A stretch of 64,000 nucleotides of DNA from Pseudobdellovibrionaceae bacterium (lineage in GTDB: Bacteria > Bdellovibrionota > Bdellovibrionia > Bdellovibrionales > Bdellovibrionaceae). This document shows, piece by piece, positions 53,975 to 57,007 of this stretch; within the stretch, counting starts at the first letter, position 1, and every line of letters begins with the position of its first letter. The stretch spans positions 124,001 through 188,000 of the forward strand of contig CANFQX010000005.1 of NCBI GenBank assembly GCA_947449255.1. The letters are read 5' to 3'. The translations under genes were made by a program, and so were the position numbers. The notes under the pieces were generated by a model. That model saw only the letters and a list, made by a program, of their open reading frames with translations, made no database searches and was not told where the DNA came from.

Positions 53975-54466
53975 CTAGCTTGTGGGCTTAACAAAATGCC
54001 GCTGCCGAAGCCCTTCATAAGCCGCAATGGCAACACTGGTGGCTAAATTCAAACTCCGCGCACCTTCTCCAACCATTGGAATGGTGACATTTTGGGCAGG
54101 ATATTGTGCTAACAAATCAGGATCCAAGCCTTTGGTTTCTTTTCCGAAAACCAACCAATCTCCGTCTTGATACTGGGGATCAAAATACGTTTTGCGGGTT
54201 TTGGTGGTGAACATCCAAACTCGAGATGGATCTTCAACTTTTTGCCACCAATCTGAAAAATTGGCGTGATGAAACCAGGTTAAATAGGGCCAATAATCCA
54301 GACCGGCTCTTTTCAGGTTTGTATCATTGATTTCAAAGCCCATTTTTCCAACGATATGCAACTCACAATTCGTCGCCACACAGGTTCGACCGATATTTCC
54401 AGTGTTCTGAGGAATTTCAGGCTCTATCAATACGACGCGAAAGAGCTTTTTTGAGTCAGACATCAT
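53975..54466 (-). CDS. trmL: tRNA (cytidine/uridine-34 2'-O)-methyltransferase
   Basis: 163 residues of the SPOUT class. The N-terminal VVLIEPEIPQNTGNIGRTC and the C-terminal knot segments LVFGKETKGLD and NVTIPMVGEGARSLNLATSVAIAAYE are diagnostic of TrmL. It methylates the wobble ribose of tRNA-Leu. Two adjacent ATG codons are possible starts. It is convergent with nothing and followed by secA on the same strand after 130 bases. Confidence 0.95.
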   Translation of the reverse strand: MMSDSKKLFRVVLIEPEIPQNTGNIGRTCVATNCELHIVGKMGFEINDTNLKRAGLDYWPYLTWFHHANFSDWWQKVEDPSRVWMFTTKTRKTYFDPQYQDGDWLVFGKETKGLDPDLLAQYPAQNVTIPMVGEGARSLNLATSVAIAAYEGLRQRHFVKPTS

Positions 54467-54588
54467 TCATCCAAATTCGAATATTTTTTTAAACTGCGCT
54501 TCTGCGGGTCAAGATACCAAAGTCCCAGCTTAGGCTCAATGGAATAGTGTTGGAATGCGTTATTTGAGTAAATTTATTTATAGATTTT

Positions 54589-54616
54589 TTGCATTCCATA
54601 ATTCCTTTGCTATGCT
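54589..54616 (+). promoter_or_regulatory. Likely promoter of glnB-glnA with inverted repeat
   Basis: TTGCAT at 54589-54594 and TATGCT at 54611-54616, spaced by 16 bases, resemble a housekeeping promoter, 32 bases before glnB. GCATTCCA (54591-54598) overlaps the -35 box and pairs with TGGAATGC at 54551-54558. This spaced inverted repeat could be an operator. I see no good -24/-12 sigma-54 site. Confidence 0.45.
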
Positions 54617-54629
54617 TCACCAAAATTAA

Positions 54630-54986
<357 letters not shown>

Positions 54987-55022: not shown

Positions 55023-56438
55023 ATGACCGCGAAAGAAGCATTGAAGTTTGCGCACGAAAAAGGCGCTAAGATGGTAGACCTCAAGTTCTGTGACATAGTC
55101 GGAACTTGGCAGCATTTAACGATTCCACTTCATCAACTTGAAGAAGAGTCCTTTGAAAATGGCTATGGGTTTGATGGCAGCTCAATGCGTGGCTGGAGAG
55201 GGATTGAAGAATCCGATATGATCGTCATGCCCGACGCAAACACTGCAATGATGGATCCCTTCATGGAAATCCCGACTTTGTCCTTGATCTGTGATGTTTG
55301 TTTGCCGGAAACTCTGCAAGCCTACAATCGTGATCCTCGTCAAATCGTAAAAAAAGCGATCGCTTACATGCAATCTACCGGCATCGCGGACACAGCATAT
55401 TTTGGTCCTGAAGCTGAATTCTTTATCTTTGATGATGTTCGCTTTGAACAAACTAACAACTCTGCTTTTTACATGGTCGATAGCGACGAGGCCGCTTGGA
55501 ATACTGGCCGCGATGAAGGTGGCAACAACCTAGGCTATAAAATCAGAAGCAAAGAGGGCTATTTCCCAGCACTTCCAACTGACACTTTGCAGGATATTCG
55601 TTCTGAAATCTGCGTTGAGCTTGAAAACTGTGGAATGCGCGTTGAACGCCATCACCATGAAGTGGCTTCAGCTGGACAATGTGAAATTAATTTCCAATAT
55701 GATACGGCTTTAAATATGGGCGATAAAATGATGTGGTTTAAATACATCGTTAAAAACGTTGCAAAGCGTAACGGGAAAACAGCGACATTCATGCCTAAGC
55801 CTCTGTTTGGCGATAACGGTTCAGGCATGCATATTCATATGTCTTTGTGGAAAGATGGAAAAAATCTTTTTGCTGGAAATAAATATGCGGGACTTTCTGA
55901 AATGGCACTCCACTACATCGGTGGCGTGTTAAAACATGCTCCAGCGTTGTGCGGTATCATCAATCCAACCACGAACTCCTATAAACGATTAGTTCCTGGC
56001 TTTGAGGCTCCGACAAAATTGGCTTACAGCTTTAAAAATCGTTCAGCGGCGATGAGAATTCCAAACTCTGGGCCAAACCCTAAGGCAAAGCGCATTGAGT
56101 TTAGAACTCCAGATCCTACAGCGAACATTTATATGGCTGAAGCGGCGATCTTGATGGCAGGCTTAGATGGAATTATTAACAAAATAAATCCAGGTGAACC
56201 ACTTGATAAGGATATCTATGGACTGCCACCACAAGAAGCAGCTGCTATTCCTTCAGTTCCGGGAACACTTGAAGAATCTTTGAAAAACTTGGTTGAAAAC
56301 TGCAGCTTCCTTAAAAAAGGTGACGTTTTCTCTCAAGATCTTATAGACACCTGGGTGCAGTATAAAATCGACAAAGAAGTTCGACCAGTACAACAAAGAC
56401 CAGTTCCCTATGAGTTCCATTTGTATTACGATTGCTAG
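55023..56438 (+). CDS. glnA: Glutamine synthetase type I
   Basis: About 471 residues. Blocks include FDGSSMRGWRGIEESDM, GPEAEFFIFDD, HHHEVASAGQCEI, NGSGMHIHMSLWKDG and RIEFRTPDPTANIY. Tyr at about residue 399 in KDIYGLPPQEA matches the adenylylation site of the GSI-beta class. It makes glutamine from glutamate and ammonia. The frame opens at 55005, but AGGAG 8 bases before ATG 55023 decides the start. A strong terminator follows. Confidence 0.97.
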   Translation: MTAKEALKFAHEKGAKMVDLKFCDIVGTWQHLTIPLHQLEEESFENGYGFDGSSMRGWRGIEESDMIVMPDANTAMMDPFMEIPTLSLICDVCLPETLQAYNRDPRQIVKKAIAYMQSTGIADTAYFGPEAEFFIFDDVRFEQTNNSAFYMVDSDEAAWNTGRDEGGNNLGYKIRSKEGYFPALPTDTLQDIRSEICVELENCGMRVERHHHEVASAGQCEINFQYDTALNMGDKMMWFKYIVKNVAKRNGKTATFMPKPLFGDNGSGMHIHMSLWKDGKNLFAGNKYAGLSEMALHYIGGVLKHAPALCGIINPTTNSYKRLVPGFEAPTKLAYSFKNRSAAMRIPNSGPNPKAKRIEFRTPDPTANIYMAEAAILMAGLDGIINKINPGEPLDKDIYGLPPQEAAAIPSVPGTLEESLKNLVENCSFLKKGDVFSQDLIDTWVQYKIDKEVRPVQQRPVPYEFHLYYDC

Positions 56439-56449
56439 TAATAGAACGC

Positions 56450-56489
56450 ACAAGGCTTAGCTTAAAAAATTAAGTTAAGCCTTGTTTTT
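56450..56489 (+). terminator. Intrinsic terminator after glnA
   Basis: ACAAGGCTTAGCTTAA pairs with TTAAGTTAAGCCTTGT (one G-U/mismatch) and is followed by TTTTT. It begins 11 bases after the glnA stop and separates the nitrogen operon from the GcvH-like gene. Confidence 0.9.
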
Positions 56490-56547
56490 CACCAATCAAT
56501 AGGGTTTATAAACTTCCTTGAGAGCGGAATCTTGGAGAGAAAAAATA

Positions 56548-56964
56548 ATGGGATCAGACGACGTAAAACAATTTATGGGCTATATGTGGACACACCAAGA
56601 AGATGGAATCATCACTATTGGTATTAACGAAGATGGCCTTGCAGACTTTGAATCAATCAGTTCTGTTGAGCTTCCTTCTGAGCAAGAAGAAGTCAGCGCA
56701 GAAACAGTTATCGGAACAATTGAAACCAGTGACGGCCCCTTGGATATTTATGCCCCCGTCAGTGGAACCATTATTGAGATTAACTCTCAAGTCCTAGAAG
56801 ACCCTAGCATCATTATGGAAGATCCCTATGAAGAGGGATGGCTTGTCCGTATCGAAGCTGATGAAGATGAAGACTTCGATGAGGACGAGGATGAAGACGA
56901 AGATGACGAGGATGATGAAGACGACGACGATGACGACCTCGAAGATGAAGACGACGAAGACTAA
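56548..56964 (+). CDS. GcvH-like protein without lipoyl lysine, with poly-acidic tail
   Basis: 138 residues. Residues 1-102 align by eye to glycine cleavage H protein: TIGINEDGLADF, ELPSEQEE, IETSDGPLDIYAPVSGTIIE and DPYEEGWLVRI. The position of the lipoylated Lys (VESVKAASD in GcvH) is Asp62 here, so it cannot carry lipoate at the usual place. Residues 103-138 are almost all Asp/Glu. No gcvT or gcvP is near. The frame opens earlier, but GGAGAG before the ATG at 56548 sets the start. It is a single-gene unit with its own terminator. A role as a binding or scaffold protein is a guess. Confidence 0.8.
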   Translation: MGSDDVKQFMGYMWTHQEDGIITIGINEDGLADFESISSVELPSEQEEVSAETVIGTIETSDGPLDIYAPVSGTIIEINSQVLEDPSIIMEDPYEEGWLVRIEADEDEDFDEDEDEDEDDEDDEDDDDDDLEDEDDED

Positions 56965-56982
56965 TTCTTCCTTCTCTGCAAA

Positions 56983-57007
56983 AGGGCCGCACAAGCGGCC
57001 TTTTTTT
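56983..57007 (+). terminator. Intrinsic terminator after the GcvH-like gene
   Basis: GGCCGC-ACAA-GCGGCC followed by seven T, starting about 20 bases after the stop codon. A textbook rho-independent terminator. Confidence 0.93.

Follow-up and report, generated by a model that had tools for sequence, protein, structure and literature searches.

Lipoate carriage in the H protein of the glycine cleavage system (GcvH) requires, by known chemistry, the lysine that bears the cofactor. H-like proteins also occur outside the standard system, such as GcvH-L of Streptococcus pyogenes, which is lipoylated and lies in a macrodomain context. The LbpA proteins of sulfur oxidation are lipoate-binding GcvH paralogues whose role lies elsewhere than in glycine cleavage; their lipoyl lysine is strictly conserved, and they are tied to hdr-like clusters (PMC6067878). 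Carrier domains that lose the modified lysine for a regulatory or structural role have rarely been described. One case is BADC, carrier-domain paralogues of BCCP that have lost the modified lysine and with it the biotin site, and that serve as non-catalytic subunits of acetyl-CoA carboxylase; whether they help to assemble the enzyme or inhibit it is under debate (PMC11926652). Besides, BCCP is bound by PII proteins, whose targets repeatedly include biotinyl/lipoyl-binding domains (PMC7646526). In the open-access paper library, which sets the scope of this statement, we found no description of a lysine-less GcvH or of the Bdellovibrio gene treated here.

The window, which means the whole stretch of 64,000 nucleotides that was analysed, contains a gene that we call gcvHx. 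The gene and the signals around it are as follows.

56548..56964, plus strand: gcvHx, GcvH paralogue without the lipoyl lysine, 138 aa (open reading frame, profile, alignment and tree)
56548..56856, plus strand: H-protein-fold core, residues 1-103, net charge -22 (predicted structure, charge count)
56731..56733, plus strand: codon of Asp62, at the lipoyl lysine position (alignment)
56857..56961, plus strand: acidic tail, residues 104-138, 32 of 35 Asp/Glu, predicted disordered (AlphaFold2, charge count)
56534..56539, plus strand: ribosome-binding site GGAGAG (read from the sequence)
56450..56485, plus strand: terminator-like 16-pair hairpin with a T run behind it, in the gap from glnA to gcvHx (-22.1 kcal/mol, z -6.7)
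56980..57005, plus strand: terminator-like hairpin 3' of gcvHx (z -4.5)

The start codon is ATG, with GGAGAG 8 nt upstream. Residues 14-112 match the Pfam family GCV_H (PF01597) with E=2.8e-23 and 82.5 bits (cut-off 22.2), which confirms the clear H-protein resemblance that the preliminary description of this DNA had pointed out. The protein falls below the gcvH equivalog cut-off of TIGR00527 (72.5 versus 115.85 bits), and its matches to two curated families of GcvH-like proteins that are not GcvH, TIGR03077 (not_gcvH; 44 bits, cut-off 144.05) and NF045810 (GcvH_rel_desulf; 43.8 bits, cut-off 150), are weak and far below the cut-offs. The genome of the window (99.97% complete) has exactly two GCV_H matches, gcvHx and a normal GcvH with the lysine motif IESVKAV, which is part of a normal gcvT-gcvH pair on contig C8; therefore gcvHx is a paralogue and not the H protein of the cell. 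The gcvP gene is located on C8 too, and no glycine-cleavage genes lie near gcvHx, so that both the earlier remark on their absence and the proposed search for a separate true set were answered by this other contig. A third H-protein-like gene, which keeps the lysine, was seen in two other genomes (L072:3974-4348 in G002, IESVKNIH; L071:3905-4339 in G044, IESVKFTH), where it adjoins, or is one gene from, a gene that by eye looks like a Fur-type regulator.

The structure of gcvHx was modelled by AlphaFold2 from 40 aligned homologues, and the model was searched with Foldseek and VIA-align. The pLDDT is about 91-95 over residues 11-100 and about 49-55 over the last 28 residues (111-138). It turned out that the top structural matches are all H proteins, the best being the bovine one (3klr; Z 18.3, rmsd 2.1 over 109 residues); GcvH-L (5a35) gives Z 14.4, and BCCP and other barrels give Z <8. 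The predicted H-protein fold spans residues 3-112, and the C-terminal helix of H proteins is absent, with the acidic tail, predicted to be disordered, in its place. According to this prediction the fold of gcvHx is H-protein-like, as had been supposed, and not some structure unlike the lipoyl fold.

Asp62 aligns with the lipoyl Lys of the GcvH from the same genome. Among 64 distinct gcvHx orthologues the residue at this site is D in 42, Q in 11, E in 7, S in 2, G and N in 1 each, and Lys in none (0 of 64), versus Lys in 20 of 20 true GcvH, which were taken as comparison paralogues from the same or related genomes. The replacement of the modified Lys by Asp thus stands for the window, and the orthologue with Lys that could have contradicted it was not encountered; across the family it is the absence of Lys that is conserved, and Asp itself only in part. 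Judged by its sequence, gcvHx cannot carry lipoate by known chemistry, having no Lys. In the orthologue alignment the lysine turn is rebuilt as Thr60-x-x-Gly63 (Thr60 89%, Gly63 95%), and the residues around the lysine and in the next helix are unlike those of GcvH. The two proteins share a set of fold residues (Trp14, Gly25, Leu42-Pro43, Pro70, Gly73, Glu77, Asn79 and Trp98), while many GcvH-invariant positions are not kept, including His15, Glu16, Leu37-Gly38 and Tyr42 of GcvH. Since these residues and the C-terminal helix are lost, it is unlikely that the surface on which the glycine-cleavage enzymes dock has stayed as it was.

Nearly all of the 60 relatives examined carry gcvHx. Among 291 genomes of the phylum, matches well above the score of true GcvH were found only within the class Bdellovibrionia, a restriction that refers to these sampled genomes; outside the class the best matches reach at most 109 bits and mostly begin at profile position 10, in agreement with true GcvH in both score and span. 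When a public genome collection was scanned, 42 gcvHx loci came up, nearly all from MAGs or isolates with Bdellovibrionota-type titles, the exceptions being generic titles and one Streptomyces griseus. This last MAG (L094) has a Bdellovibrionia gcvHx with a neighbouring glnA, and its title is probably wrong. In a maximum-likelihood tree, whose alignment of about 136 columns leaves the inner forks poorly resolved, all 64 distinct gcvHx are set apart from the rest by one branch, supported at 100/100. As far as alignment and tree can tell, gcvHx is a real, old, single-origin paralogue family of GcvH. Core identity to the respective copy in the genome of the window is 46-80% for gcvHx versus 78-96% for GcvH, so gcvHx evolves faster, though by the same sequence comparison it stays constrained. 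Its persistence as one clade together with the conserved altered turn argues for a function. Five genomes of 1.2-2.0 Mb from one related family (G204, G234, G243, G252 and G262) are without gcvHx, and no full-length glutamine synthetase of type I or III was found in them by profile.

We tentatively favour, at somewhat less than even chances, the reading that gcvHx is an old GcvH paralogue that ceased to be lipoylated and that Bdellovibrionia have retained as a non-catalytic, strongly acidic binding module. It would be a "pseudo-carrier" subunit, an H-like barrel without the lipoyl arm, whose barrel may bind an enzyme with lipoyl or biotinyl domains as its usual contacts and may modulate the activity or assembly of this partner; by analogy, it would act like plant BADC, the non-biotinylated paralogues of BCCP. 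The likeliest targets would be the glycine-cleavage or lipoate machinery, or the linked ammonia assimilation. For this binding module we count the loss of Lys, the single clade, the constrained core, the conserved turn, the predicted H fold, the presence of GcvP in 79 of 80 genomes tested, the repeated adjacency to glutamine synthetase genes, the precedent of BADC and the binding of biotinyl/lipoyl-domain proteins by PII. Against it we count the lost GcvH-invariant residues, the absent helix, the losses of gcvHx and the co-occurrence with glycine cleavage, which is nearly universal in the class and therefore cannot discriminate between targets. Where gcvHx was lost, glycine cleavage has been retained, and in five of these lineages glnBA as well. 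The non-catalytic adaptor of the preliminary description is thus plausible, its non-catalytic half agreeing with the missing Lys, the predicted fold and the true GcvH elsewhere in the genome, and its binding half being our inference. In one assembly (G246) gcvHx is present, and gcvH, gcvP and gcvT are absent. This genome was set aside as a natural test of whether gcvHx depends on glycine cleavage, because a flanking tldD-type gene is absent as well and the assembly is 94% complete.

The conserved linkage of gcvHx to glnB-glnA and to a trmL/secA block had been overlooked in the preliminary description. In the window the neighbours are the following.

54648..54986, plus strand: glnB, PII signalling protein, ancestral neighbour
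55023..56438, plus strand: glnA, glutamine synthetase type I, ancestral neighbour
53975..54466, minus strand: trmL-like SpoU methylase, conserved divergent neighbour

Over 79 loci, which come from two overlapping sampling sets and are not independent, the neighbours of gcvHx are trmL (71), secA (65), a GGACT-like gene (64), glnA (37), glnB (32) and spoVR-yeaH (18; both named by eye). We read secA-trmL-GGACT / glnB-glnA-gcvHx as an ancestral block whose parts are separately dispensable. The GGACT (gamma-glutamyl cyclotransferase-like) gene, which in most relatives stands between trmL and glnB or gcvHx, is missing at the corresponding place, 54467-54647, of the window. The gap between glnA and gcvHx is 109 bp in the window and holds the 16-pair hairpin, and in relatives it is often 9-40 bp. 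The claim of a separate gene with its own ribosome site and terminator therefore fits the window, with GGAGAG and hairpins on both sides, but it does not make gcvHx independent of glnA, which gcvHx often follows so tightly in close relatives.

This arrangement suggests a rival reading, which we consider unlikely, that gcvHx serves PII (GlnB) and glutamine synthetase as an accessory, with PII or GlnA binding the H-like barrel and so tuning ammonia assimilation. Counted by hand from match coordinates, a GlnB-type PII lies within 5 kb of gcvHx on one contig in 27 of the 30 genomes that have both, and on different contigs in the other three; the short gaps behind glnA point the same way. Since BCCP and further proteins with biotinyl/lipoyl domains are bound by PII (PMC7646526), the link to glnB is worth testing. 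However, a PII domain protein is missing from 33 of 68 carriers, the closed genome G025 among them, so PII cannot be the sole partner, and a dependence of gcvHx on PII was rejected by this co-occurrence. Most of the PII-less carriers that were tested have only a larger, type III-like glutamine synthetase (type taken from length and profile span). One unrelated synthetase of this kind lies beside gcvHx in G030 (L045:1677-3893, minus strand; the same as L104), where the gene for 738 aa is 105 bp downstream of gcvHx on the same strand and glnB-glnA is absent; this single case is suggestive of the accessory role. On the other side, trmL-glnB-glnA is kept in five genomes from which gcvHx is gone, and the presence of GlnB is not associated with gcvHx: of 68 carriers 30 have a close GlnB, and of 12 non-carriers 5. 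Common descent of the locus accounts for the linkage without a shared function. A wider form of the idea, that a cofactor-less H protein links PII/glutamine synthetase signalling to glycine cleavage or lipoate metabolism throughout this class of predatory bacteria as a dedicated non-catalytic regulatory subunit, is in our view quite improbable. If true, it would make gcvHx the bacterial analogue of plant BADC, with the H protein as its basis.

Charge raises another alternative. The tail of the window protein has a net charge of -32 over 35 residues and the whole protein about -54, so gcvHx might be a general polyanion (nucleic-acid mimic, chaperone-like or cation-binding), in which the charge and not the H fold does the work; we give this little probability. 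In every orthologue that was parsed correctly (one mis-split row, L061, is left out) the core has a net charge of -17 to -25, and Lys and Arg together number only 1-7 per protein across orthologues. The acidic tail is coded with all four Asp/Glu codons and is thus not a simple DNA repeat. But the tail varies among orthologues from a net charge of about -39 to one of about 0, the conserved positions are mostly fold residues and a specific turn, which bare charge would not need, and part of the acidity is common to true GcvH (-15 to -17). The tail as the defining feature of gcvHx was rejected on this variation. The hyperacidic tail is a trait of some lineages, strong throughout the family of the window, and the conserved feature is the acidic core; the tail emphasized in the preliminary description is real in the window but not conserved, and its role as the key to function was not borne out.

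Similarly improbable is a dominant-negative decoy that simply competes with GcvH for the attachment of lipoate or for GcvT/GcvP. The predicted common fold and the true GcvH in nearly all carriers would allow it, but a decoy should have kept the docking surface, whereas gcvHx is unlike GcvH around the lysine and in the next helix and lacks the C-terminal one.

In conclusion, gcvHx offers a clean single-origin case of a carrier domain without its lysine, kept in most sampled Bdellovibrionia, for which the true GcvH of the same cell provides an internal control. Annotation by domain only would likely misname it "glycine cleavage system protein H" and mislead metabolic reconstructions. Compared with known systems, gcvHx shares with BADC the state of a carrier paralogue without the modified lysine, by analogy across different origins, since BADC comes from BCCP, not GcvH, and belongs to the plant plastid. 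GcvH-L has an H-like fold outside the standard system as well, but it is farther from gcvHx than true GcvH is (19% identity). LbpA is a GcvH paralogue too, and gcvHx has neither its conserved lipoyl lysine nor its linkage to hdr-like clusters. The closest relative is GcvH itself (PF01597, TIGR00527), which gcvHx resembles in predicted fold, GCV_H profile and the Gly/Pro/Trp core residues, and from which it differs in having an acidic tail, no lipoyl lysine (ESVKA turn) or C-terminal helix, no linkage to gcvT/gcvP and a score under the equivalog threshold.
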